Source: Methanosarcina vacuolata Z-761 (GTDB lineage Archaea > Halobacteriota > Methanosarcinia > Methanosarcinales > Methanosarcinaceae). From it: 64,000 bases of DNA. A model generated the notes under the pieces. The model did no database searches and was not told the origin of the DNA. It worked only from the letters and a program-made list of their open reading frames with translations. The stretch is taken from the NCBI RefSeq assembly GCF_000969905.1, contig NZ_CP009520.1, forward strand, positions 1,116,001-1,180,000, given 5' to 3'. This document shows positions 3,164-55,137 of the stretch, piece after piece (position 1 is the stretch's first letter; each line of letters starts with the position of its first letter). The position numbers and the translations under genes were made by a program.

Positions 3164-4096
3164 TTATTGAACAACGGCGTAGACGAAAGACTTCAGGCTA
3201 TCAACTATTCTGTTTTTATTTATTCCTTGAAAATAGGCTTTTTTACAATCTTCCATAGTTACATTGTATACCTGTGTAAATCCACGCTGTGTAAGGAATA
3301 TATCAACTGTTCCTTCCTTGATACCGAACTTAAACGGTTCTCCCAGCTGTGATACTTGATTCCGAATGTTCCTCCCCGCCTCAAGTTTAGAACTTCCATC
3401 AACTGCAGACTGGGGAAAATAATCAAAGAGAATGCTACTGTTCTTTCCTGAGTTCTTTACAATAAAGGATAGGATTTCATCTACCACCTTTGGCTGAAGA
3501 TACATTAAGAGCCCTTCCATCAGGAAAAGAGTCTTAACGTGCCGGCTATATCCCATGTCTATCAACCTTTGACCAAAGTCTTCGGTTTCTAAATCGCAAG
3601 GGACATAGACAACGTGATCTGGCAAACTGCCAAAGATAATTTTTATTTTTTCCATTTTTATATTTTGTGTAGCAGGATGGTCTACCTCAAAAGTTTTGAT
3701 TTTCTCCAATCCTTCAATCCGATAGGCACGTGAATCATATCCTGCACCTAATATAACCAGTTGCTCGATACCTTCATCTATTGATTTTTTAACAAAGTCG
3801 TCAAAGAATCTGACTCTAGCAGCGATTGAGTTATTTCTTCCCGGAAAAAATTTGTCCAGCTGCTCATGCATTTTTCTTGCTTCATCTGGATGGTTAGCTC
3901 CCCACTCCAAAATCTCCGGGTTGATGAAATAGACTGCATACGGGTCATAACAGATTCGTTCGTCTTCGGGCTTCTGCGATTCAAAATGTCTGGCAAGTAA
4001 AACTCCCATGGCTGTCTTGCTGCCTGGTCCTGTTATTTCCTTAAACATTTTGTTCATATTGTTGAACTCTTTCTCTGCATTCTCAGACATTTCCAT
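3164..4096 (-). CDS. SAM-dependent methyltransferase, leucine carboxyl methyltransferase-like family
   Basis: The protein is 310 residues of the LCM/PPM1-type class I methyltransferase family that includes TIGR00027-like proteins. Family signatures are GVLLARHFES near the N-terminus, the SAM-binding loop LGAGYDSRAYR at about 118-128, the acidic ribose-binding segment EVDHPATQ, and LFLMEGLLMYL. The ATG at 4096 follows AAGGAG by about 10 nt. It stands alone with intergenic DNA on both sides. The substrate is unknown; in bacteria and actinomycetes the family is used for O-methylation of small molecules or polyketides. A role in protein carboxyl methylation is less likely. Confidence 0.8.
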   Translation of the reverse strand: MEMSENAEKEFNNMNKMFKEITGPGSKTAMGVLLARHFESQKPEDERICYDPYAVYFINPEILEWGANHPDEARKMHEQLDKFFPGRNNSIAARVRFFDDFVKKSIDEGIEQLVILGAGYDSRAYRIEGLEKIKTFEVDHPATQNIKMEKIKIIFGSLPDHVVYVPCDLETEDFGQRLIDMGYSRHVKTLFLMEGLLMYLQPKVVDEILSFIVKNSGKNSSILFDYFPQSAVDGSSKLEAGRNIRNQVSQLGEPFKFGIKEGTVDIFLTQRGFTQVYNVTMEDCKKAYFQGINKNRIVDSLKSFVYAVVQ

Positions 4097-4412
4097 ACAT
4101 AATATTCTCCTTTATTCTCTGCTCATTTAAGGTCAACATTAATCAATTTTTCAAATTAAAAATCTATCTTTTGCAGAGGCAAAATTTAAAGCGACTACTG
4201 AAGATACAATTTAATCGTAAATGATTTTCAGGTCTACTTGATATAATTCCGTTTATAGTACCAGCTCAGATGCCATCACACAAGAAAGCCTATTGAGTAA
4301 TTTATGGGGAAAAGTACTAGATTTTCCTGGACTGCTCTATGTTAGCTCCTAATCTGATTTTCTACAGGATTATTCTGCGTGCAGAGGTAATAGTTTATCA
4401 GCGAGGAAAAGT
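4097..4412. other. Intergenic region between divergent genes
   Basis: No gene is supported here. The stretch must hold the promoters of the minus-strand methyltransferase and the plus-strand surface protein, but I could not single out a TATA element with confidence. Confidence 0.3.
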
Positions 4413-5405
4413 ATGAAAAATAAAGTTCTTTTAGCATTTTTAATTTTCTTTCTTTTCGTTGCATTAGTAACAGTCGCATCGGCTGGAACAGAAACTCAGC
4501 TCACTCATGGTGAGCGATTAACATCAGGAATATCATTCTATGGAAACCATGTTTTTTGGACGGAAAGTGCTGGAAATGATGTACATGCTTATGACCTGAC
4601 TACAGGAAAACGAATAGATATTGATGGTCATGCTGCAGCCGGCCGAACTCATGCACATGGAAATAAGGTCGTATGGACTGGTGATATGGGTGATGCCGTT
4701 TATATGTACGACGTTTCTACAGGTAACGAAACTATGATAGCATCTGAACGGCGTGCCCCTACTATGATAGCATCTTACCGGCATGTCCCTGATATTTATG
4801 GCAATTATATAGTCTATACTAATAGCAACTATTCTTATGGTCAAGATCACAAAAATGACGGAATTTATCTGTACGATCTCAATACTGGCAATGAGACTAA
4901 AATAGCCACTGTTCACGGATATCCTGCTATATATGATAAGACAGTTGTATGGTCTCAAGCTGACAACAGCGGTGGTTATGATATCTACATGTATGACAGA
5001 TGTACTCACCAAACAAGCATAATAACAACTACAAATAGTTCAAGTTACGAGTCCCGCGGACTCGATATCTACGGAAATGTCATTGTATGGACAGAATCAG
5101 GCAATGTGTATATGTATGATATTACTACCCACAAAATAACTCCGGTTACCAAAAGTGGAAATGCAACTGATTCTGCAATCTATGGCAAACGGATAGTATA
5201 TACATTAGCTATCTTTTCTGGTATTGGGGACATCTACATGTATGACATATCTACTACCAAAAAAACCCGCATAACTACCAGCACCAATGCATTTAAACCA
5301 TCTATATATGGAGATAAAATCGTATATGTAGATGGCAAAAATTCGAAATATCCTGACGTAAGAGACATTTATCTATGTGACCTCAAGCTCAAAGCTGAGA
5401 GCTAA
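4413..5405 (+). CDS. Secreted beta-propeller (TolB/WD40-like) surface protein
   Basis: The protein is 330 residues. An N-terminal signal peptide (MKNKVLLAFLIFFLFVALV, cleavage near ASAG at about 25) leads into repeated blades of about 45-50 residues with the pattern Y-G-N-x-V-x-W-T...IYMYD-x-T-T, characteristic of Methanosarcina TolB/WD40-like propellers. About six blades are visible and there is no C-terminal anchor, so it is probably secreted or held by the S-layer. The first ~75 residues are almost the same as the N-terminus of the GH18 protein at 7605-10019, showing a recent common origin or gene conversion. The ligand is unknown. Confidence 0.75.
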   Translation: MKNKVLLAFLIFFLFVALVTVASAGTETQLTHGERLTSGISFYGNHVFWTESAGNDVHAYDLTTGKRIDIDGHAAAGRTHAHGNKVVWTGDMGDAVYMYDVSTGNETMIASERRAPTMIASYRHVPDIYGNYIVYTNSNYSYGQDHKNDGIYLYDLNTGNETKIATVHGYPAIYDKTVVWSQADNSGGYDIYMYDRCTHQTSIITTTNSSSYESRGLDIYGNVIVWTESGNVYMYDITTHKITPVTKSGNATDSAIYGKRIVYTLAIFSGIGDIYMYDISTTKKTRITTSTNAFKPSIYGDKIVYVDGKNSKYPDVRDIYLCDLKLKAES

Positions 5406-5756
5406 AAGCAATATTTACTGTATATCTGGCAGAATGCTACTAAGCCGCCTACATCGACTTTATTGAAAATAGACATGATATAATCACAATATAGAATAAT
5501 GACCTTTATTACTTACTTTTTAATTACAGTTTTGAATTTATATCGCAGATATGACTATTATATTAATAAGACTAAACAATTCATAAGATATGCCTAACAA
5601 TCTGGCTGCGCTTACATCAAACATGGAATTACTTTTATGTTTCAGAACAAATGATTCCATAGTCTCCAATGCTTTTTTGATAATATCTCAGTGTGTAAAA
5701 ATGAATTTCAGAACTAAAGAAATTCAGAAATATTGGTATTCTAAAAGTGGTTAGAT
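5406..5756. other. Intergenic region, nothing recognised
   Basis: AT-rich spacer between two plus-strand genes. I see no gene, repeat or clear terminator. Confidence 0.3.
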
Positions 5757-7604: not shown

Positions 7605-10019
7605 TTACTTCCTTTTATACAGGAGCACTGCAAACAGGCTGGCTATTCCGTAATAAATCTCAAAACCTGGTGTGCTTGGAATTTCGTTTTGTTCAGTCTG
7701 TGGTTCTTTACTTGAGGTATTGTTAATTGTTTCAGGGTAATCAATCTCTATCTTCGTTACAATTTCTTCAGGTAATGGTTTCACTGTACCCGTTATTGCA
7801 AATGAAGAGAACCCTGAAGTTTTGGCTGTGAAATATAAGAATTCATTATCTTCTCCTAAAAGACTTACTGGAAATTGCTCCCATTTTTTATCGTTGTATC
7901 TATTAAGAGTAATAGAAGATTTATCGATATCTTTGTCCTTTACCCAGGATTTTTCAACCTTGAAACACACGATTGGATTTTCCATGTTCTTTGAGGTTGC
8001 AATTCCTCCATTTCCTACCCAGACATTAAAGGATCTGTAGACTTCACCGTCGGGCAGTATGGAAACCAGAGAAGATTTCTCTTTGAGCTGTTCAGTAATG
8101 GCTGTTGTCTTCCCGAAAGTTTTCTTCGAATCAAAATTCACATACACAACACAGGTTACATTTTTTGGGAAATCGAACGTTACAGATTTCCCATTTATAA
8201 CAGCAGCTTGTGAAAGTTCCTTTACCTGGACATTACTTTGAAGCTCCGGAGACCCGCCTCCACCTCCTCCAACACTAGAGCTGCTATGGCCACTTCCACT
8301 ACTGTCACCGCTTGAGCTCCTATGACCACTTCCACTAGTGCCACCACTTGAGTTGTTTTCTTCAAACACAATTATTGTAGCAGTTTTTGAGGCCGTATGA
8401 TTTCCATTGCTTACTGTCAGGTTAATAATATAGGTTCCTGCTGCAGAGTAAGTGTGCAATGGGTTCTGCTCAGTTGAAGTGTTTTCATCTCCAAAGTTCC
8501 AATTCCTTAATATTGCGTGTTGCGACAAGTCGGTAAACTGGACTGAGAGAGGGGTATAGCCACTCGTGACACTGGCGCTGAAGTCCGCTACAGGATCTAA
8601 TTGAAACACTTTCCAGATGTTAGAATAATTTCTTTCGTATCCCAAAGCCCAAAAACCTACTCCACCTAGATTTTCGGATTTTGCATATTGATATTTTAAT
8701 TTAAGTGATTCATCGTCATCGTACCATACTTGATGCCATGTATCACCAGCCTTATAAAAATACCAGGGAGTATTGGAATCGGAGTCCCAAATTCTGCCAT
8801 GAACCTGAGAATTATTCACCGCAGTTCCTATAAATATGGCTTGTTCCCTGGTAATATTTGCTCCTGGTTGATTGGAGTCTGTCGAATAATCATAACCATA
8901 AAAAGGCAAGCCTAATATTATTTGACTTTTATTAAAATATTTTGATGTTTCACTTATCGAGTCAATCGCATCATATCGAATTGAACTGTTATATGGTGAA
9001 TTGGGAGCAGTGGTTTTACGATTACAATAATCATAACTCATGAGAAAAACGGAATCGGTATATTTTGTCAGATTTGCGTTTTTGAAGGTCGCAGCATATT
9101 TTATGCCCCAGGGAACATCGAGAGAAATATGATAAGCGGGATTCGCAGCTTTTAACGTTATATGAAGATTTGCCATTAAATTTTCAAATAAAGGAACATT
9201 TGAAGTCCCGGTGATACTGTTTATATCGGTCGGTGTTTCCAGGTCTAAATTTACTCCATCTGCACCATACATCTGTAATGAATTTGAGATATTGTTTATG
9301 AAATCTGTCTGGTGGTTTGCAATTACACTGTCCATTACATATGGGTCATTTGAATAGATACACAGTGTTACTTTTACTCCACGTTGATGTGCCTGATTCC
9401 TAATTACATAATAGTTACTCATATTTGCGGGGTCCGTAAGTGTGCCATCACTGTTTACAGTCCATTTAGAATATGAAACATGAGTTAAGGTATTCCAATC
9501 TGGTTGATAGGATTCAAGGTAAGACCAGCTGGGCCAAAAACCATATACTATAGTATTGTTAGGCGCAGCGAAATCTGCCACCTGTGCTTGTGGGGGAGTT
9601 ACATTAATACTATTCGGTTTCGTCACCGTACTATTGCCAGCGTCATTTTCTCTTACATCTGGATTGGTCTCTAGATTGCGATTATCTGCATATACGATTT
9701 TATCGTTATAGATAGATGGACTAAATGCAGTAGTACTTGTTTTTATGCGGGTTTTTTCATGCGCATTAATTTGGCCGTCTGCAGCATGACCACTAATATC
9801 TGTTCGTTTTCCTGTAGTCAGGTCATAAGCATGTACGTCATTCCCAGCACTCTCTGTCCAAAAAGCGTAGTTGCCAGAGAAAGATATTTCTGATGTTAAT
9901 CGCTCACCATGAATGAGCCGAGTTTCTGTTCCAGCCGATGCTATACATGAGCCAAAAATTAAAAAAAACAAGAGTGATGCGGTTAAAGGTATTGAATTCA
10001 ATTTTTTCTTATTTGTCAT
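7605..10019 (-). CDS. Surface protein: partial beta-propeller + GH18 + PKD + PGF-CTERM anchor
   Basis: The protein is 804 residues. Order: signal peptide (about 1-29); a collapsed beta-propeller (about 30-125) joining the first and last blades of the 4413-5405 protein; a glycoside hydrolase 18 domain (about 155-480) with VYGFWPSW and the catalytic strand DGVNLDLE; a PKD domain (about 485-560, WNFGDENTSTEQNP); a Ser/Gly linker (about 560-600); a PGF-pre-PGF-like domain; and a C-terminal STPGF motif, hydrophobic segment and KRK tail, the archaeosortase A signal. The GH18 consensus DxxDxDxE keeps the catalytic Glu, while the second Asp is Asn. It likely acts on beta-1,4-HexNAc glycans or is only a glycan-binding adhesin. 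A terminator follows. Confidence 0.85.
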   Translation of the reverse strand: MTNKKKLNSIPLTASLLFFLIFGSCIASAGTETRLIHGERLTSEISFSGNYAFWTESAGNDVHAYDLTTGKRTDISGHAADGQINAHEKTRIKTSTTAFSPSIYNDKIVYADNRNLETNPDVRENDAGNSTVTKPNSINVTPPQAQVADFAAPNNTIVYGFWPSWSYLESYQPDWNTLTHVSYSKWTVNSDGTLTDPANMSNYYVIRNQAHQRGVKVTLCIYSNDPYVMDSVIANHQTDFINNISNSLQMYGADGVNLDLETPTDINSITGTSNVPLFENLMANLHITLKAANPAYHISLDVPWGIKYAATFKNANLTKYTDSVFLMSYDYCNRKTTAPNSPYNSSIRYDAIDSISETSKYFNKSQIILGLPFYGYDYSTDSNQPGANITREQAIFIGTAVNNSQVHGRIWDSDSNTPWYFYKAGDTWHQVWYDDDESLKLKYQYAKSENLGGVGFWALGYERNYSNIWKVFQLDPVADFSASVTSGYTPLSVQFTDLSQHAILRNWNFGDENTSTEQNPLHTYSAAGTYIINLTVSNGNHTASKTATIIVFEENNSSGGTSGSGHRSSSGDSSGSGHSSSSVGGGGGGSPELQSNVQVKELSQAAVINGKSVTFDFPKNVTCVVYVNFDSKKTFGKTTAITEQLKEKSSLVSILPDGEVYRSFNVWVGNGGIATSKNMENPIVCFKVEKSWVKDKDIDKSSITLNRYNDKKWEQFPVSLLGEDNEFLYFTAKTSGFSSFAITGTVKPLPEEIVTKIEIDYPETINNTSSKEPQTEQNEIPSTPGFEIYYGIASLFAVLLYKRK

Positions 10020-44407: not shown

Positions 44408-45601
44408 TCAAATGTTATATGCAACTTCACCATGCTGCGTTTTGTCAAGTCCGATGTTTTCTTCACTTTCGCTGACTTTAAGCCCTATAGTCTTGTTAAG
44501 TATGAATCCAATAAGGAGGGTGCCTGCAGCTGCATAAACAATTGTGACAACAACTCCTTGAAGCTGGATTAACATTTGGCTGGAATTCCCAAGAAGGAGG
44601 CCAGTCCCTCCTACACTTGCAAATACACCTACCAGAAGTGCACCTACTATTCCACCCACGCCGTGTACTCCAAAAGCATCCAGCGAGTCATCATATCCAA
44701 GCCTTTCTTTGAGTCCTACAGCGTTGTAGCATACGAAACTTGTGATCACACCTATAGGAATTGCTGCCATTGGCGTAACAAAGCCTGCACTTGGAGTTAT
44801 TGCAACAAGTCCTGCTAGAACCCCTGTTGCAAATCCCAGGGCCGTTGGATATCCTAAGTGGCGCCATTCAAGGGCCATCCAGACGAATCCCGCAGCTGCT
44901 GGAGCTACAAGCGTTGTAATGAATGCAAGGGATGCGATCTCGTTTGCAGCAAGTGAAGAACCTGCGTTAAACCCAAACCACCCGAACCAGAGAAGCCCGG
45001 TTCCAAGAAGCGTCAGAGTAACGTTGTGCGGCTTTAGTGGATCTACTCCAAAACCACGCCTCTTGCCAAGGTATGTAAGAATTGCAAGTGAGGAAATACC
45101 TGAAGTTATATGCACAACTGTGCCGCCCGCAAAGTCCAGAGCTTTCCCTGTTAGGAATCCGCCTCCCCAGACCCAGTGGCAAACAGGTGCATATACGATA
45201 ATTCCCCAGAGGGCAATAAATGCAATATAAGATTTAAACTTCACACGTCCTACAATTGCACCCGAAATCAGAGCAGGTGTAATTATTGCAAACATTCCCT
45301 GAAATGCAACATATGCATAAGTCGGAATTGTGCCGGTTACTGAGTATACATCTATCCCTTTCAGGAATGCATGTCCAAGGCCACCCACAAACCAGTTGCC
45401 GTCTGCAAATGCAAGCGAGTAACCTATTAATACCCATTCCAGAGCCATGACGCCCATCGCAACAAATGAGTGCATCATGCTGCTCAGAACGTTTTTACGC
45501 TGGACAAGCCCTCCATAGAACAGCGCAAGTCCGGGAAGCATTAACAATACAAGTGCAGACGAGATTAGTACCCATACCGTGTCTGCTGCTTCAATAGCCA
45601 T
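44408..45601 (-). CDS. Ammonium transporter (Amt/MEP family), copy 2
   Basis: I choose the ATG at 45601 with GAGGGG 6 nt upstream (397 residues). Eleven membrane helices are evident. Family motifs are MLPGLALFYGGLVQRKN, AYVAFQGMFAIITPALI, DFAGGTVVHITSGISSL, LWFGWFGFNAGS and DSLDAFGVHGVGGIVG. It is the second gene of glnK-amt (10-nt gap), so it is the channel that GlnK would block when nitrogen is sufficient. Confidence 0.96.
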   Translation of the reverse strand: MAIEAADTVWVLISSALVLLMLPGLALFYGGLVQRKNVLSSMMHSFVAMGVMALEWVLIGYSLAFADGNWFVGGLGHAFLKGIDVYSVTGTIPTYAYVAFQGMFAIITPALISGAIVGRVKFKSYIAFIALWGIIVYAPVCHWVWGGGFLTGKALDFAGGTVVHITSGISSLAILTYLGKRRGFGVDPLKPHNVTLTLLGTGLLWFGWFGFNAGSSLAANEIASLAFITTLVAPAAAGFVWMALEWRHLGYPTALGFATGVLAGLVAITPSAGFVTPMAAIPIGVITSFVCYNAVGLKERLGYDDSLDAFGVHGVGGIVGALLVGVFASVGGTGLLLGNSSQMLIQLQGVVVTIVYAAAGTLLIGFILNKTIGLKVSESEENIGLDKTQHGEVAYNI

Positions 45602-45611
45602 GTTCATCCCC

Positions 45612-45956
45612 TCATAGAGCGTCTGGTCCGGTTTCGCTTGTCCGAATCCGTATTACATTCTCTAAAGGAAGCACAAATATCTTGCCGCTTCCGATGTAAC
45701 CGTCAGTGCCTTTTGCTCCGACAGTTATTGCTTCAATAACTGATTGCAGGAACTGATCTTCCACTGCAATTTCGATCTTCACTTTTTCAAGAAGATTTGC
45801 TTCGTGTTCAGTTGCCCTGTAAATCTCTAAATGCCCCTTTTGCGCACCATAACCGGCGACCGATGATACTGTCAGTCTATTTACCTCAAGTTTCTGAAGC
45901 TCTCTTTTGACTGCATCGAGTCTTTCCGGCCTTATCATTGCAATTATATATTTCAT
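45612..45956 (-). CDS. glnK: PII nitrogen regulatory protein GlnK
   Basis: I choose the ATG at 45956, with GGTGGT 4 nt upstream (114 residues). It has the PII N-terminus MKYIIAMIRPERLDAVK, the T-loop GYGAQKGHLEIYRATEHEA, KIEIAVED, and the B-loop/C-terminal signatures GTDGYIGSGKIFVLPLENVIRIRT. The T-loop Tyr that bacteria uridylylate (position 51) is His here, so GlnD-type modification is ruled out. It binds ATP, ADP and 2-oxoglutarate and plugs Amt; in methanogens it also acts through NrpR. Confidence 0.95.
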   Translation of the reverse strand: MKYIIAMIRPERLDAVKRELQKLEVNRLTVSSVAGYGAQKGHLEIYRATEHEANLLEKVKIEIAVEDQFLQSVIEAITVGAKGTDGYIGSGKIFVLPLENVIRIRTSETGPDAL

Positions 45957-45992
45957 CACGACCACCAATAGGTGTCTTGTATCCGATTTCTT

Positions 45993-46124: not shown

Positions 46125-47108
46125 ATGTTAAAACAGAAAGCCTGGGTATCTGGTATGAGTTCCTTTTTTCTGTTTTCAAACATTTCTGTCAGAGAGCTTT
46201 TATCTAGCGAAAGCAAATTTAGAGGTATGTTCGGAGAAATTGGAATTGTAAAAAGCGAGGCTGATGAGACTGCTCTGCAAATTCTTTCCCTTTTCAGAGA
46301 CAGCATCAGTGAAATTTGCCTGAATGAACCTGAATCCATTTCAGATTATTTCAAGCCGGAGTATTCTCATTATATCATAGTCCATACTCCCCTGAATATC
46401 CGGTTCCCTGAGAAAAGAGAAGAATGGAATATGCGTTTTTGCAGGGATGCCGGAGTTTCGGTTGTTGAACGTATCGTAACCGAAACTGACAGAATTTACG
46501 TAAGAGGACTTATGGCAGTCAACGGGTCAAAGGTCTATGCTATCCTTCCTTTTATGACAATAGATGCAGAAAAAGCAAAGAGAGCAACATTTCCTGAAGA
46601 CCGCATGGCCCGTGTTCGGGCAAAAGTGCTTCCTTCTGTACTTCCTGACATAAAAGGAGAAACGATCCTCGATATTGGAAGCGGCTTTGGAAGCCTTACC
46701 ATAGAGCTTGCAAGAAACAATCCCGATTCGAAAGTTTACGGAATTGATCTCCATGATTCTCTTACAGGCCAGTCGCAGATGAATGCCGATGTCCTTGGCG
46801 TGCCGAATGTAAAATTCAGGACTGGAAGCGCTTATGCCCTTCCTTTTGAAGCCGGCTTGATTGATGCAGCTACCTGCTTTTTAATGCTTCACCACCTCGA
46901 AGACATCAAATTTGCCCTGTTCGAGATCAAGAGAGTGCTTAAAAACGGCGGCCTGTTAATAGCAGTTGAGCCGCTTGCAGAACACCACCACCACGGACCT
47001 CAACTCTCGAAAGCCGGATGGCAAGAGCTTTTCGAAGACGTTGGCTTCGCAGTAGAGGTTGAGAGCCAGGAAGGAGCAGCGATTATGAAAGCTGTGAAAA
47101 GAGACTAA
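46125..47108 (+). CDS. SAM-dependent methyltransferase with N-terminal accessory domain
   Basis: The protein is 327 residues. A ~170-residue N-terminal region of unknown fold (MLKQKAWVSGMSSFFLF, SDYFKPEYSHYIIVHTPL) precedes a class I methyltransferase: motif I LDIGSGFGSLTIELA, VYGIDLHDSL, YALPFEAGLIDAATCFLMLHHL, KRVLKNGGLLIAVEPL. The His-rich AEHHHHG loop may bind metal. The start at 46125 lacks a clear ribosome site. Substrate unknown. Confidence 0.7.
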   Translation: MLKQKAWVSGMSSFFLFSNISVRELLSSESKFRGMFGEIGIVKSEADETALQILSLFRDSISEICLNEPESISDYFKPEYSHYIIVHTPLNIRFPEKREEWNMRFCRDAGVSVVERIVTETDRIYVRGLMAVNGSKVYAILPFMTIDAEKAKRATFPEDRMARVRAKVLPSVLPDIKGETILDIGSGFGSLTIELARNNPDSKVYGIDLHDSLTGQSQMNADVLGVPNVKFRTGSAYALPFEAGLIDAATCFLMLHHLEDIKFALFEIKRVLKNGGLLIAVEPLAEHHHHGPQLSKAGWQELFEDVGFAVEVESQEGAAIMKAVKRD

Positions 47109-47824: not shown

Positions 47825-48151
47825 GTGCATTGATTCCAAAGTATGTCAGGAATAAATTTTTTGAAAACCACTGAAAGCACAGAAAACACGGAAATAAGTA
47901 GTAAAGGCGTGTTTCTTCCGTGCTTTCCGTGTTTTCCGTGGTTGTAATATCCAGATAGAATCACTCTGCGACTGGTTGTGTTTTCCGTGTTACAGAATTC
48001 CATGTGACTTTAACATAATATTTGAGTCGTAAGCCGTAATTATTTAGCATGAAAATGCTGCCATCTGCAAGCATTTTCATTGTTTGTGCATGTTATTCAA
48101 AGAATATCATGTGCGTTTTCTTATTATGTACTTATTTGAGAATCGATACAC
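47825..48151. mobile_element. MITE family D (TA-flanked), copy 2, with internal insertion
   Basis: The element matches 12709-12962 over most of its length but carries about 70 extra bases near the right side that include a TGAAAATGCT/AGCATTTTCA hairpin. Its ends GTGCATTGATTC and GTGTATCGATTC are inverted. TA lies on its left (47823-47824). Its right TA (48152-48153) has become the target of an IS630-family insertion. Confidence 0.75.
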
Positions 48152-48153
48152 TA

Positions 48154-49326
48154 GTATCGTGACAATATAGTTATGAGTCACTTATATACTTTGAATTCTA
48201 TATTATATCTTATGTTAAATATTAATCTTAATGATAGTGAAGTTCTATTTCTTAAAAACTTTCTTAAAAAATGACAGAAAAATGCAAGATCTCTTGCCAG
48301 AGCACGTATTCTACTACTGGCAAATCAGGGAAAAGGAGACACTGAGATCGCTAAGATATTATGTATTGGGAGAAGCACTGCTTTAAGAATCAGAAAAAGA
48401 TGTCTTGAAGAAGGTCTACAAAGTGCTTTGATAGATAAACCAAGGTCAGGTCAACCTGAAAAATATAGTGAAAGGCACGTTGCAGAAATAATAGCTCAAG
48501 CATGTACAAAACCTCTAGAAGGAAGAAATAGATGGTCACTTTCACTGCTTTGTGAAGAATTGAGGAAAAAAGAAGGCTTTGAAACGATAAACAAAGAAAG
48601 TATCAGACTTATTTTGAAAAAAAGCAAAATTAAGCCCTGACAGAAAAAGATGTGGTGCATTCAGAGAATTGATTCCGAATATAGAAAGAGAATGTACGAT
48701 GTTCTTGACCTGTACGAAGAGGATTTTGACCCAAAAAGACCTCTCATATGTCTTGATGAGAAACCGAAACAACTTCTCGAATATAAGCGAAATCCCATTC
48801 CAATGAAGCCTGGAAGTCCGGAGAAGTATGATTATGAGTACATCAGGAATGGAACCGCAAACATATTTGTGGCGGTAGAATTTAAAGCAGGAAAAAGGGT
48901 GACTCGAGTCACCGAAAGCAGAAAAATGGCTGACTTTGCGCAATTCGTGAAAGATCTTGTTATCGAGGAATATTCAAAAGCTGAAGTCATCAGACTGGTT
49001 ACAGATAACCTAAATATCCACAAAGAAAAATCATTCTATGAGACATTTAGCGAAGAAGAAGCAAAAAAGATACTGGAAAAAATAGAGTTCCATTACACAC
49101 CAAAGCATGCGAGTTGGCTAAATGCTGCAGAAATAGAGATTAATGTGATGAATACACAATGTACAAACAGGCGAATACCTTACATAAAAACGCTTAGCAA
49201 AGAAGTAGATGCATGGATGCACAGAAGGAATATGAATAAAAAGAAAATAAACTGGAAGTTTACGAAGAAGAATGCTGATGAGAAAATGGCAAAACGTTAT
49301 GTGTCATAATTAAATTGTCATGACAC
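48154..49326 (+). mobile_element. IS630-family insertion sequence inserted at TA
   Basis: An 1173-bp element has inverted ends GTATCGTGACAATATAG and GTGTCATGACAATTTAA (read inward) and is flanked by TA at 48152-48153 and 49327-49328, the target duplication typical of IS630/Tc1-mariner. It holds one transposase frame interrupted by two TGA codons. Removing it restores the CACTAGG right border of MITE D, so the IS came later. Confidence 0.88.
48212..49309 (+). pseudogene. IS630-family transposase with two in-frame TGA codons
   Basis: One reading frame runs from the ATG at 48212 to the TAA at 49307-49309, broken only by TGA at 48272-48274 and 48638-48640. The N-terminal part carries an HTH (GDTEIAKILCIGRSTALRI). 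The catalytic part keeps all three acidic residues of the DDE triad: ICLDEKP, VTDNLNIH and LNAAEIEINVM. Both stops sit where a single change from TGG (Trp) would explain them. Without suppression the protein is inactive; transposition in trans remains possible because the ends are intact. Confidence 0.85.
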
Positions 49327-49519
49327 TAGGATATAAATTGATATACAGAAACGTATAGTAGTTTAAGTATATAATTTAATGGATGTTTTTTTAAGAAAAA
49401 TCAGTGTTTGAGGGATATTGCACACTTCGTTCTCCATTGTATCTTCTCAAAGGAAGATCCTTTGCAAATTATGGAGACATTTCAGTATTATTTTTATATG
49501 TGGATTATAGACTCTTTTC

Positions 49520-52345
49520 ATGTCGCTATCTCTACACTACATATATCTTATTCTTATTGCAATGTTGCTCGGAGCGTTGCTTCCAACAGCCGGATGTCTT
49601 CCGGAAAGTGAAGCTGTATCCGCAGACCAGAATAACATCACGATGTTAAACTTGACATACTACACAGAACAGCTACCGCCCTATAACTATATGGACAACG
49701 GTACGCTAAAAGGAATTTCCATTGATCTCCTTGAAGCGGTCACCGAGAAGATGGGAAAAAAAGTGACACGGGAAGAGATAAAACTCGTTCCCTGGACTGA
49801 GGGATATAAGACTGTTCTCACACAGAACAATACCGTACTCTTTACTACCGTGAGAGTTCCTGAACGTGAGCAGTCTTTCAAATGGGTAGGACCCATCTAT
49901 ACGTATACCAATGTCCTTTTCGCCAGGCCGGATAGGGGAATAACAATAGAGAGACCTGAAGATCTGAACAGGTACAGGATCGGAGTAATCGTCGACGATA
50001 TCGCTGTTCAGCAGCTGCTCGATGCCGGTGTGAATGAAAGCCAGCTAGTGCAGGAGACGAATGCATCCGTAATTGTCGAAAAACTCGATAACGGCGAGAT
50101 CGATCTGTGGGCTTACCCGGAGGCTGCGGGCCGGTACATCACCGAACAGGTTACCGGAAATTCGTACTCGTTCAGAGTTGTTTATACATTACCGGACCGG
50201 GAGGGCTACTATGTATTCAACAAGAACACTTCGGATTCAACTGTTATGTCTTTCCAGCAGGCCCTCGATGCCGTTAAACAGGAGAAAGACGCCACAGGCA
50301 TTAGCACTTATGAGCGGATCCTCGGGAAGTATATCTCATCGATCGGCCTTTCTCAGCTCAATTATCTGACCGAAGAGTGGGCACCTTTCAATTACCAGAA
50401 GGATGAAAATGTCACCGGGATCTCTGTCGAAATACTCGAGGCAGTTTTCAAAAACATAGGAGTTAACCTCTCACGGGCAGATGTCCGCATTGTTCCCCTG
50501 GAAGAAGGTTTCCAGACCGCGCAGAACAACACAAGTACCGTGCTTTTTTCAATTGCTTGCACACCCGAACGTGAGCCTCTATATAAGTGGGCAGGACCTT
50601 TTACCAAGGCAAGTTTTATTCTTTATGCACCGGTAAGCAACAATATTACAATATCCTCTCCAGAAGATCTCAATCAGTACCGGATAGGGGTGGTACAGGG
50701 TTCAATCGAAAATAACCTACTCACCAGCCAGGGTGTAACTGCATCGCAGATTGTCAACGGCAAAACCCCAGAAGATCTCCTCCGTATGCTGGAAGAGAGC
50801 CAGATTGACCTGTGGGCAACGGGGGATCTCGCCGGGAGGAATCAGATGCTACAGACCGCAGCTGACCCCAATGCCTATGAGATCGTATATACTCTAAGCG
50901 AAAACGACCTATATTATATCTTCAGCAAGGATGTCCCGGATACACTGGTTAGTGCTTTCCAGCAGACCCTCGAAAACGTGCGAAACCAGAAGGATGCACA
51001 GGGAGTCAGTGATTATGAGCGGATCATCTACAGGAATTTAGGAGCCGGATGCGCCCAGCAGACATTTACGGATGATGCGGTAGTGAAACTCGTAAATATA
51101 ACCTCTGCAGCAGTCGAGAAAAATGCCTCCGAGACTTTCCAGCGCATCAATGCAGGCGAAGCGCCGTACCGAGACGCAAAGGACCCGGCCCTTTATACTT
51201 TCGTGTATGATGAGAATCTGACCATCGTCGCTCATGCAGATAATGTTCAGGTTGTCGGTAAGAATTTCAAGGGTAAGACAGATGTTACCGGTAAACCGTT
51301 CCGTGATGAAATATTAGAAGGAGCACTAAAGAACGGGACTGGATGGGTAGATTATATCTATATGCATCCAGTCCAGATGAACCTGTACTATAAGACCACT
51401 TACTACCGGTTAACTCAGGGAAGCGACGGGAAATCCTACATTGTGTGCAGCGGCAATTACAAACGCTGCGAAAAACAGTCAGAAGGAATGCCAGTTAATA
51501 ACTCCTCTGCATCTCCTGAGGAGCTCGTAGCATTTGTCGAGAAAGCTTTTGAATATGCGCATATACACGGAAAGGAAGCTGCCCTTCGTGAGTTCAACAA
51601 CCAGACCGGCAAATTCGTTGACGGCGAACTCTATATCTTCGCATACGATACAAACGGCACTACGCTGGCTCTACCTTTCCAGCCCGAGATAATCGGAAAT
51701 AACCGGTGGAACATTACTGACGCGAACGGCAACCTATATATCCAGAACCTGATCGACACTGCGCAATCAGGTGGAGGTTTTGTATGGTATCTCTATGCAG
51801 ACCCTGCTGAGAACTTCACCGTTAAACAAAAACTCAGCTACGTGATGAAGGTAGACGATAACTGGATCATAGGGGCCGGAATTTACAATTCATCTGAGAA
51901 TTCGTCAATCGTAACGGTGGGGACAGATCCCCAGATAAGAGAGAGACTGAAATCTTTCGTCGGGGAGGCTATAGACTATGCCAATGAAAGTGGAAAGGAC
52001 GCCGCTATCGCAGAGTTCAATAACCAGAACGGGACGTTTATTCGCGATGGTCTCTACATCTATGCCTTCGATTATAACGGAACGACTCTGGCACTACCCT
52101 ATCAGCCTGAGTTGATCGGAACAGATCTTTCCGGACTCCAGGACCCCTACGGGGTAAATTACACCAGGGTAGAGATCTTCCTGGCGCAGCAGGGAGGGGA
52201 CTTCCTCTTCTACCACTACTACAACCCAGCCCGCAATATGACCCTTGAACCAAAAATGAGCTACGTCCAGAAAGTCGACGATACCTGGTGGCTTGGGGCT
52301 GGGACTTACATAGAGGACCTGAACCAGACCACCCAAACGAGATAA
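49520..52345 (+). CDS. Lipoprotein with two SBP_bac_3 domains and three Cache-like domains
   Basis: The protein is 941 residues. A signal peptide with lipobox TAGC (about 26) leads to two tandem periplasmic-binding-protein type 3 domains (about 42-272 and 280-505): NLTYYTEQLPPYNYMDNG...DLWAYPEA and LNYLTEEWAPFNYQKDEN...DLWATGDL. Three Cache-like modules follow (about 508-660, 663-800, 802-935); the last two share EFNNQ, YDTNGTTLALP/DYNGTTLALP and KVDD-W-GAG. No kinase, MCP or membrane domain follows. It is likely an extracytoplasmic amino-acid or organic-acid sensor. Codon use is visibly more GC-rich than neighbours, suggesting recent transfer. The start lacks a clear ribosome site. Confidence 0.82.
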   Translation: MSLSLHYIYLILIAMLLGALLPTAGCLPESEAVSADQNNITMLNLTYYTEQLPPYNYMDNGTLKGISIDLLEAVTEKMGKKVTREEIKLVPWTEGYKTVLTQNNTVLFTTVRVPEREQSFKWVGPIYTYTNVLFARPDRGITIERPEDLNRYRIGVIVDDIAVQQLLDAGVNESQLVQETNASVIVEKLDNGEIDLWAYPEAAGRYITEQVTGNSYSFRVVYTLPDREGYYVFNKNTSDSTVMSFQQALDAVKQEKDATGISTYERILGKYISSIGLSQLNYLTEEWAPFNYQKDENVTGISVEILEAVFKNIGVNLSRADVRIVPLEEGFQTAQNNTSTVLFSIACTPEREPLYKWAGPFTKASFILYAPVSNNITISSPEDLNQYRIGVVQGSIENNLLTSQGVTASQIVNGKTPEDLLRMLEESQIDLWATGDLAGRNQMLQTAADPNAYEIVYTLSENDLYYIFSKDVPDTLVSAFQQTLENVRNQKDAQGVSDYERIIYRNLGAGCAQQTFTDDAVVKLVNITSAAVEKNASETFQRINAGEAPYRDAKDPALYTFVYDENLTIVAHADNVQVVGKNFKGKTDVTGKPFRDEILEGALKNGTGWVDYIYMHPVQMNLYYKTTYYRLTQGSDGKSYIVCSGNYKRCEKQSEGMPVNNSSASPEELVAFVEKAFEYAHIHGKEAALREFNNQTGKFVDGELYIFAYDTNGTTLALPFQPEIIGNNRWNITDANGNLYIQNLIDTAQSGGGFVWYLYADPAENFTVKQKLSYVMKVDDNWIIGAGIYNSSENSSIVTVGTDPQIRERLKSFVGEAIDYANESGKDAAIAEFNNQNGTFIRDGLYIYAFDYNGTTLALPYQPELIGTDLSGLQDPYGVNYTRVEIFLAQQGGDFLFYHYYNPARNMTLEPKMSYVQKVDDTWWLGAGTYIEDLNQTTQTR

Positions 52346-52791: not shown

Positions 52792-55137
52792 TTACTTAAC
52801 TGTAATATAACTGGTCTTTTTTACGGTGTTACTACCAGCAGCATTCTTTACCGTTAAGCTCACCGTGTATTTTCCTGCTTTAGTATACCTGTGCGTTGGA
52901 TTATGGGTAGTTGAAGTGCTTTTGTCACCAAAGTTCCAGTACCAGGAAGTGGGTGATCCTGTGCTCTTATCAGTAAACTTCACATTCAAAGGATGTTTTC
53001 CAGTGGTTGGAGATGCAGAAAAAGCAGCAACAGGTTTTGTCACAGTTACAACATTTATGTACTTGGATTTTGTTGCGGTATTACTACCAGCAGCATTCTT
53101 TACTGTTAAACTCACCGTGTATTTTCCTGCTTTAGTATACTTGTGTGTTGGATTCTGGGCTGTCGAATACGTTCCATCTCCGAAACTCCATTTCCAGGAA
53201 ATGGGACTATTTGCGCTCTTATCAGTAAATTTTACTGTTAATGGTGCTTTTCCTGAAGTTGGAGACGCAGAAAAAGCAGCAACAGGTTTTGTCACAGTTA
53301 CAACATTTATGTACTTGGATTTTGTTGCGGTATTACTACCAGCAGCATTCTTTACTGTTAAACTCACCGTGTACTTTCCTGCCTTAGTATACTTGTGCGT
53401 TGGATTCTGGGCTGTCGAATACGTTCCATCTCCGAAACTCCATTTCCAGGAGGTGGGACTATTTGCGCTCTTATCAGCAAATTTTACTGTTAATGGTGCT
53501 TTTCCTGAGGTTGGGGATGCAGAGAAGGCAGCAACCGGGGTTTTGAATATTTTGTTTCCGCTAATTACAGCATTTTGAATATTTTTTATTATGATTCCAG
53601 AAGCGGACCTTGATGTATCCACATTTATTAAGGTGTTATTTTGTATTTTTACAGCACCATTTTTGAAAGAATTCCCATCTATATATATTCCTTCCATTCC
53701 CAGATTTGAGAAAGTATTTTTAGAAATATCTAAGTTTACCCCGTCTATCAGGAACTTCTGATACACTCCTAAGTATGAAAGATCTTTAAAAGTGTTATTG
53801 CTTATTATTATGTTCCTAAAACTCCCTTTGTTTGGAAAATCAATTCCATACGTCCCTTTATTTTGAATATTATTTCTAATTATAAGCTTGTTATCTATTC
53901 CATTTCCTCCCTTATACATGTCACCTGACATACCATTAAACGTGTTATTTTCGTAAATGTGAACCCCATCATTTAAGCTGCCACGTTTAAATATTCCTCC
54001 ATATCCACCATAAATCTCATTATCAGAAAAAGTGGACTGTTGCGTGCCATCTGCAAATGCATAATGTTTTAGAAGTTGCGGGTATATCTTATTTCCAGTT
54101 ACGACAAAATTAATAGTAACAGCATGAGCATCAACTACGTTAGCACCAGTGACCTCCGCCCCTATCAGAGTGTTATCGGCGATAAAAACGTCTCTATCTA
54201 AAGATTTGCGTTCATCTGAATTGCCTGTTATAGTATGCCTGCAATTCTCTATGTGATTACTGGTTATATTTACAAAAGCCGAACCGCTAGCTACATTTAT
54301 ACCATAGCCGCAGTTAGCATGAAGTGAATTATAAATTTCGTTATTATTAACACTCACATTAAAACAGGAATATAGACAAAGATCACCAAATCCGCTATTA
54401 TTGAGATAGGAATTTGTGACTGAACTATCCTTGCAATATTGCAGAACAAGGCCATGATGAATCGTTGAACTACCTGTATCCTCTATCCTTATATTTTTTA
54501 TATTTATCTGAATAGGCCTGTATACTTCAACCTGTACGGTCTCGGACAATTTGTAATCCCTAAGAAGTGGTTGATTTAAAGTAACGACATTTCCATTTAC
54601 ACCTTTAACAGCATACATTTCACCGGTCATTTGATCGGGATAATCCAGAGGACACCACTGAACGTTTTTCCAAATCTTAACCAGGTCGTTCTTGCGAACC
54701 TGGGAAGCATCAGTTAATATAATTTTAGATGAACCTTTTTTAGCGTTAGCAGATAGAGTTGTATTTGCGACAATTGATCCATTGAAAAAAATCTCTCTAT
54801 TCACTTCTTGAGCCATTCCTCTATCCGGAGTTTGAAGGTGGAGGGTTACTTTCCCCTTGCCTATTATGTTCAGACTTTTGCCTGTCTGATATATTTCTTG
54901 TGGGAGATAATAGTCCCCTTTCTGGATAGTTATTGTATCTCCACTTTTTGAGTAATTCAGTGCTGTCTGAATGCAAGCTGAATCGTTTGCGTAATTAGGT
55001 GTATGAAAATAACCTGGTCCATCTGATCCAGCCTGTTTGTCAATTACGATATTTGCCGCCAGAGCTGAAGAGCTACTTAACACAAGAAAAAAAAGAGTTA
55101 GGGTAAATATTGTCATAAGAGTTTTTAAATTTTTCAT
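52792..55137 (-). CDS. Surface parallel beta-helix protein with three PKD domains
   Basis: The protein is 781 residues. A signal peptide (about 1-27, ending ALAA) leads into a right-handed beta-helix/NosD-pectate-lyase-like region (about 28-525) with ACIQTALNYSKSGDTITIQKGDYYLP and repeating short strands (N-x-IENC, SNNTF, ISKNTF). Three PKD domains follow (about 530-781), each with WKWSFGDGTYSTAQNPTH or WYWNFGDKSTSTTHNPTH. PKD 1 and 2 repeat almost exactly over 252 bp at the DNA level. There is no PGF-CTERM. It probably binds or cleaves surface or environmental polysaccharide. The catalytic residues are not identifiable. Confidence 0.85.
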   Translation of the reverse strand: MKNLKTLMTIFTLTLFFLVLSSSSALAANIVIDKQAGSDGPGYFHTPNYANDSACIQTALNYSKSGDTITIQKGDYYLPQEIYQTGKSLNIIGKGKVTLHLQTPDRGMAQEVNREIFFNGSIVANTTLSANAKKGSSKIILTDASQVRKNDLVKIWKNVQWCPLDYPDQMTGEMYAVKGVNGNVVTLNQPLLRDYKLSETVQVEVYRPIQINIKNIRIEDTGSSTIHHGLVLQYCKDSSVTNSYLNNSGFGDLCLYSCFNVSVNNNEIYNSLHANCGYGINVASGSAFVNITSNHIENCRHTITGNSDERKSLDRDVFIADNTLIGAEVTGANVVDAHAVTINFVVTGNKIYPQLLKHYAFADGTQQSTFSDNEIYGGYGGIFKRGSLNDGVHIYENNTFNGMSGDMYKGGNGIDNKLIIRNNIQNKGTYGIDFPNKGSFRNIIISNNTFKDLSYLGVYQKFLIDGVNLDISKNTFSNLGMEGIYIDGNSFKNGAVKIQNNTLINVDTSRSASGIIIKNIQNAVISGNKIFKTPVAAFSASPTSGKAPLTVKFADKSANSPTSWKWSFGDGTYSTAQNPTHKYTKAGKYTVSLTVKNAAGSNTATKSKYINVVTVTKPVAAFSASPTSGKAPLTVKFTDKSANSPISWKWSFGDGTYSTAQNPTHKYTKAGKYTVSLTVKNAAGSNTATKSKYINVVTVTKPVAAFSASPTTGKHPLNVKFTDKSTGSPTSWYWNFGDKSTSTTHNPTHRYTKAGKYTVSLTVKNAAGSNTVKKTSYITVK

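Follow-up and report, generated by a model that had tools for sequence, protein, structure and literature searches.

A predicted 941-residue Methanosarcina lipoprotein with two solute-binding and three Cache domains, probably derived from two neighbouring lipoproteins

A single gene of Methanosarcina vacuolata Z-761 encodes a predicted lipoprotein of 941 amino acids, in which two amino-acid-type solute-binding domains (SBPs) are followed by three Cache domains. Sequence comparison indicates that it is an in-frame fusion of two neighbouring lipoproteins, one of the form SBP-SBP-Cache and the other Cache-Cache. We propose that it is an orphan multi-ligand cell-surface sensor that arose by this fusion and signals via a membrane partner, a reading that seems to us evenly poised between right and wrong. 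The sequence itself shows the architecture, purifying selection, the fusion junction, the carboxylate-pocket residues of Cache 1 and the lack of a polar-amino-acid permease in the genome; we infer lipidation, the ligands, the sensing function and the partner. What is new here includes the origin of the lipoprotein by fusion. Its parts are ordinary, its whole is unusual, and it is a variant of orphan sensory binding proteins. Among the titles and abstracts listed in literature searches, none described the protein or its architecture. The window referred to below is the whole stretch of DNA that was analysed, 64,000 nucleotides of contig NZ_CP009520.1.

Results

Domain architecture

The Pfam scan of the whole protein returned SBP_bac_3 over two stretches (7.8e-23), sCache_2 over three stretches (3.1e-50) and dCache_2 (8.4e-45). 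In a search of the entire genome (4.56 Mb, two contigs), the two SBP_bac_3 copies (PF00497) scored 44.9 and 33.8 bits against a cut-off of 26.4, and the three sCache_2 copies (PF17200) scored 86.5, 61.4 and 42.2 bits against a cut-off of 25. Pfam gave no output domain for this protein, whether kinase, MCP or other. The only hydrophobic segment detected was the N-terminal one, which runs into a lipobox pattern ending at Cys26. A first-pass annotation, made from the letters of the sequence, had described a lipobox, two amino-acid-binding-like folds and three Cache-like modules with no kinase, MCP or membrane helix, and this description was borne out in full. The two SBPs are 40% identical to each other. 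Cache 2 and Cache 3 share 50% identity; with Cache 1 they share 29% and 27%, respectively. The features of the locus are listed in Table 1.

Table 1. Features of the lipoprotein gene and its surroundings (positions in the window)
Feature	Position	Strand	Evidence
amtB and glnK (presumed), conserved locus context	44408..45968	-	in 7/8 full or near-full loci
SAM methyltransferase gene, conserved upstream neighbour	46125..47108	+	Pfam; same position in 8/8 full or near-full loci
Insertion sequence between methyltransferase and lipoprotein genes, outside the system	48151..49329	+	DDE_3 transposase (Pfam)
Promoter-like upstream block, TTTATA near the start codon	49429..49519	+	alignment of 8 upstream regions
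Whole gene, 941-aa putative fused lipoprotein	49520..52345	+	open frame and translation, Pfam, dN/dS
Signal peptide, residues 1-25, lipobox ending at Cys26	49520..49594	+	N-terminal hydrophobic stretch, lipobox match
SBP1, residues 37-276, amino-acid-type solute-binding fold	49628..50347	+	Pfam, alignment
SBP2, residues 277-512, tandem copy of SBP1	50348..51055	+	Pfam, alignment
Cache 1, residues 513-655	51056..51484	+	Pfam, alignment
Putative fusion junction and tether from the second lipoprotein, starting inside the end of the Cache 1 segment	51485..51508	+	comparison with separate genes
Cache 2, residues 664-795	51509..51904	+	Pfam, alignment
Cache 3, residues 806-936	51935..52327	+	Pfam, alignment

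Against five relatives, the gene had a dN/dS of 0.11-0.14. This indicates clear purifying selection, and the frame is therefore a real gene and not a chance ORF. The named relatives with 79-83% identity belong to Methanosarcina. Past the signal peptide the protein carries 30 N-glycosylation sequons where 8.6 were expected, a number reached in none of 2000 shuffles, which fits the predicted extracellular location. Lipidation is likewise predicted from the sequence: the lipobox Cys is found in five of the eight full-length or near full-length copies, that of M. vacuolata included. Two of the others have Ser in its place (L035, 8001-10799; L062, 8011-10839), and these proteins may thus be secreted or retained by an uncleaved signal segment. 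The structure model of the 941-aa protein was weak (mean pLDDT 58.5), and that of Cache 1 modelled alone was poor (41.0) and was not used. A fold search with the full, weak model placed Cache and amino-acid SBP structures at the top, which agrees with the sequence searches and adds little to them.

Origin by fusion

Of the 111 genomes of the family, 8 have a copy that is full-length or nearly so (G000, G088, G094, G089, G083, G075, G009 and G087), and three of these copies have an internal stop. Elsewhere the modules are found in separate genes, encoding SBP-Cache (about 420-430 aa), SBP-SBP-Cache (about 650 aa), SBP-SBP (490 aa) and Cache-Cache proteins (about 320 aa), as well as a double of the last (about 610 aa). 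The separate methanogen lipoproteins are 65-75% identical to the N-terminal part of the 941-aa protein (six genomes compared) and 71-78% identical to its C-terminal part (several genomes), although there they make up two genes with two lipoboxes and here a single chain. In three genomes (G410, G233 and G069) the SBP-SBP-Cache and Cache-Cache genes are adjacent on the same strand, and those that are complete each carry a signal peptide and lipobox of their own. The metagenome-assembled genome (MAG) OWC_0078 has both in one locus, with a divergent gene between them.

The junction was compared with the separate genes of four loci (L067, L068, L072 and L034). The first protein ends at the join in CSGN(F/Y)K.C. 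After the join, the fused chain has a QNQSE-like tether, and the same tether follows the lipobox in the separate second protein. The signal peptide of the second protein is lost, and its tether is retained. Given this motif and the retained tether, it would be simplest to suppose that the stop codon and the second signal peptide were lost in one deletion, along with the intergenic stretch.

Two lipoproteins of about 470 aa (L114, 4428-5846, minus strand; L115, 4483-5886, plus strand) have overlapping Cache-Cache matches. Their sequences suggest three consecutive Cache units, a further architecture of the lipoprotein family. Antisense ORFs over Cache-Cache genes were considered as a gene family and dropped; the two that were scanned had no Pfam match.

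Insertion sequence and downstream region

The first-pass annotation had placed the gene next to IS elements. There is indeed one insertion sequence directly upstream, but its position beside the lipoprotein gene looks incidental. The upstream block between it and the gene is conserved in most relatives, and because this block separates the two, expression of the lipoprotein gene may be intact. The DDE_3 transposase of the element is split between frames. Its ends were set by eye (CTAGT...), and a repeat search gave a different inverted pair (48182-48202 and 49354-49374).

Downstream, the minus strand encodes a beta-helix protein of 781 aa that contains three PKD domains (52792-55137), at the position where relatives have modCBA. 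This gene has the same place in G078, G100 and G102, at 88-90% identity, and no match to modC, modB or modA was found within 40000-62000 of the window. In G075, a second copy of the methyltransferase gene lies in broken pieces just 3′ of the lipoprotein gene (L061, 7367-7914, minus strand).

Descent and gene loss

Codon use that differs from the neighbours, together with the IS, had been taken as a sign of transfer. The GC3 of the lipoprotein gene (0.537) does differ from that of the 12 other window genes computed (0.306-0.476), but in each of the eight species compared this gene has a higher GC3 than its flanking genes, and the codon difference is therefore no sign of recent arrival. Among relatives without the gene, G098 and G076 have fragments of it just downstream of the methyltransferase gene, and weak 24-residue traces were seen in G078, G100 and G102 (E 3e-4 to 5e-3). 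A 5′ piece lies at a contig end in G101. In the protein tree the window copy groups with L064, L032 and L035, and the methyltransferase tree is broadly the same. Synteny, the traces in gene-less relatives and the broadly congruent tree led us to reject a recent transfer into M. vacuolata. They point instead to inheritance within Methanosarcina, an outcome that the annotation itself had named beforehand as contradicting its proposal. One value sits poorly with plain descent: dS to the L032 copy was 0.80, about twice that of three flanking genes (0.33-0.46), and dS to more distant species was not raised. Local recombination is possible.

Over a longer time scale, an older transfer between methanogen orders is likely from sequence divergence. 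For the SBP-SBP-Cache part, identity within the genus and its near neighbour is 76-79%, compared with 95-98% for the RpoB domain (three genomes). Between orders it is still 65-72% identical, compared with 72-75% for RpoB (G248, G410, G233, G222 and G390). Such fast divergence within the genus predicts a far lower similarity between orders, which makes transfer among methanogens likely. The lower identity of the relatives in G282, G191, G130 and G173 (39-53%) looks like the product of ordinary divergence or of paralogy.

Most genomes of the genus have the gene in a broken or truncated form or lack it. This repeated decay means that the lipoprotein gene is dispensable, and its function is conditional.

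Binding pockets

In SBP_bac_3 proteins, an Arg in lobe 1 binds the α-carboxylate of the ligand and an Asp in lobe 2 binds its α-amino group. The Arg is invariant in both tandem copies (Arg116 of SBP1 in 15 aligned rows, Arg351 of SBP2 in 25), and it is shared, together with the fold, with the binding proteins of polar-amino-acid ABC systems. The lobe-2 residue, read by eye from the alignment to 4zv1, is Pro or Gly in both SBPs, and in most rows an acid follows it directly.

Cache 1 is the most informative module. It belongs to the same domain family as the sCache_2 carboxylate sensors PscD (5g4y), Adeh_3718 (4k08) and that of V. parahaemolyticus (4exo/2qhk). In PscD, propionate is held by its carboxylate through Tyr90, His103, Tyr143 and Lys156, and the ligands of that domain further include acetate, glycolate and pyruvate, according to PMC5062169. 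All four residues are kept in Cache 1, as Tyr559, His572, Tyr612 and Lys625. None of the 28 aligned rows departs from Tyr, Tyr and Lys at the positions of Tyr90, Tyr143 and Lys156; the His103 position is His in the 941-aa protein and most rows and Glu or Asn in others. Trp92 and Trp145 of PscD correspond to Phe561 and Tyr614. A small carboxylate is thus a candidate ligand of Cache 1. Cache 2 (Tyr705, Leu718, Tyr757, Lys771) and Cache 3 (Tyr846, Leu859, Tyr898, Lys912) retain the two Tyr and the Lys, with the His replaced by Leu. The sole other sCache_2 match above the cut-off in the genome (G000:C2:1591537-1591860) lies in a 381-aa frame.

Search for a partner

The first-pass annotation had suggested an external sensor that signals through a partner. 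The gene's own neighbours encode, by Pfam, the methyltransferase, the IS and the PKD beta-helix protein. The genome has 26 HATPase_c matches above the cut-off and one chemoreceptor; none adjoins the lipoprotein gene, and no kinase, chemoreceptor or phosphatase gene was found beside it in this genome. Among relatives, kinases lie beside the gene at five loci (L065, L105, L108, L071 and L091), and HATPase_c was found by Pfam in 6 of 75 neighbours, these being the 79 listed minus two antisense ORFs and two of the SBP genes. A home-made kinase profile detected 5 of 77 neighbours, compared with 6 among the 320 other genes at these loci (P = 0.042); it was built from four sequences and may miss kinases. 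Once three same-genus loci (L065, L105 and L108) are counted as one, the excess is not significant (P = 0.22). An adjacent histidine kinase was therefore rejected as the partner. The kinases of those three loci have no predicted membrane segment.

At L034, a SpoIIE phosphatase-type protein with a sub-threshold HAMP match lies beside the relative's gene. Two membrane SpoIIE-type phosphatases (3661-5637 and 8338-9717, both minus strand) flank the SBP-SBP-Cache gene in this locus of MAG OWC_0078, and one has a 5TM-5TMR_LYT region. They could be receptors.

A sensor remains the most convincing interpretation, and the lack of a polar-amino-acid permease described below favours it, but the neighbour search yielded no partner. 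SBPs are reported to stimulate membrane receptors (PMC9602780), and an unlinked partner is therefore possible.

Discussion

The annotation had offered a scavenger of several ligands as its alternative. In amino-acid ABC importers the substrate is bound by SBP_bac_3 proteins, and the SBPs might feed an ABC permease encoded elsewhere, with the Cache domains adding regulation. The invariant Arg116 and Arg351 agree with uptake, as does GlnPQ (6h30), in which tandem SBP domains like those of the 941-aa protein serve one importer. Unlike GlnPQ and the polar-amino-acid ABC systems, however, the 941-aa protein has no permease domain and its genome lacks that permease family: the polar-amino-acid permease (TIGR01726) had no match in the genome, while 11 of 14 control genomes were positive, including that of Methanosarcina acetivorans. 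Nor did the Pfam profile search find any other SBP_bac_3 protein above the cut-off in the genome. Since both are missing, uptake by the 941-aa protein is unlikely, although another type of permease is conceivable. The window offers the gene no permease as a partner; the only candidates are the mod genes seen in relatives, which have their own binding protein ModA. Uptake would also leave the three Cache domains unexplained.

A sensor or accessory of nitrogen or molybdenum metabolism, working with its gene neighbours in the amtB-glnK-nif region, would account for the locus itself, because in most Methanosarcina loci the gene follows amtB-glnK and the SAM methyltransferase gene and it often precedes modCBA and nif. 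We regard this as quite unlikely. The position is explained by one inherited insertion, and as it counts as a single inherited event, the locus context says little about function. The methyltransferase gene is found in 26 of the 30 genomes of the genus, whether the lipoprotein gene is present or absent. In G087 and G089 the lipoprotein gene does not adjoin nif, and relatives outside Methanosarcina have unrelated neighbour genes. A search with NrpR operator-like motifs gave no exact site upstream of the gene; the window contained 8 sites where 3.7 were expected, and with two mismatches allowed there were 13 where 8.8 were expected. A surface protein with a structural or adhesive role, its binding folds having lost their ligands, would suit the many sequons and the patchy, dispensable distribution. 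It is very unlikely, since even distant relatives have kept the Cache 1 pocket residues unchanged, which is unexpected for a purely structural role.

We therefore return to the orphan sensor. A lipid anchor would hold the two amino-acid-type binding folds and the three Cache modules outside the cell, with a small carboxylate as the putative ligand of Cache 1 and probably amino-acid-like ligands in the SBPs. Binding would change the shape of the lipoprotein, and this change would be read by an unlinked transmembrane partner. Several observations speak against this reading: the lack of a signalling gene next door, the Leu of Cache 2 and Cache 3, the shifted lobe-2 acid of the SBPs, the Ser in two relatives' lipoboxes and the weak structure models. 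A bolder form of the proposal, which we put forward as doubtful, is a stand-alone archaeal sensor unit that combines the signals of as many as five ligands from outside, with acetate or pyruvate bound by Cache 1, that acts via a shared membrane receptor and not its own kinase, and that was passed among methanogens as a two-gene cassette and became one protein in Methanosarcina.

The closest parallel to the proposed role is GlnH of Corynebacterium and Mycobacterium, a lipoprotein SBP that acts as an extracellular amino-acid sensor and is reported to signal through the membrane protein GlnX to PknG (PMC9769921). GlnH (6h1u) was among the fold matches of the weak model. It has one SBP domain and no Cache domains, whereas the 941-aa protein has two and three, and glnX and pknG are in the same operon as its gene, whereas membrane receptor and kinase are not beside ours. 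PscD-type sCache_2 sensors differ in another way: their domains are in transmembrane chemoreceptors, whereas here three such domains sit in a lipoprotein without a signalling domain.

To our knowledge, little is known about the means by which methanogens detect amino acids, acetate and other small carboxylates in their surroundings. In a sample of 392 genomes from across the phylum, 95 contain a relative of some part of the protein (E ≤ 1e-20), which may be set against the statement in PMC4822843 and PMC5847659 that archaeal Cache domains are less abundant and probably gained by transfer. The fusion shows that the SBP-SBP-Cache and Cache-Cache halves belong together. With its putative carboxylate pocket in Cache 1, the lipoprotein family is a concrete candidate for such sensing in methanogens.
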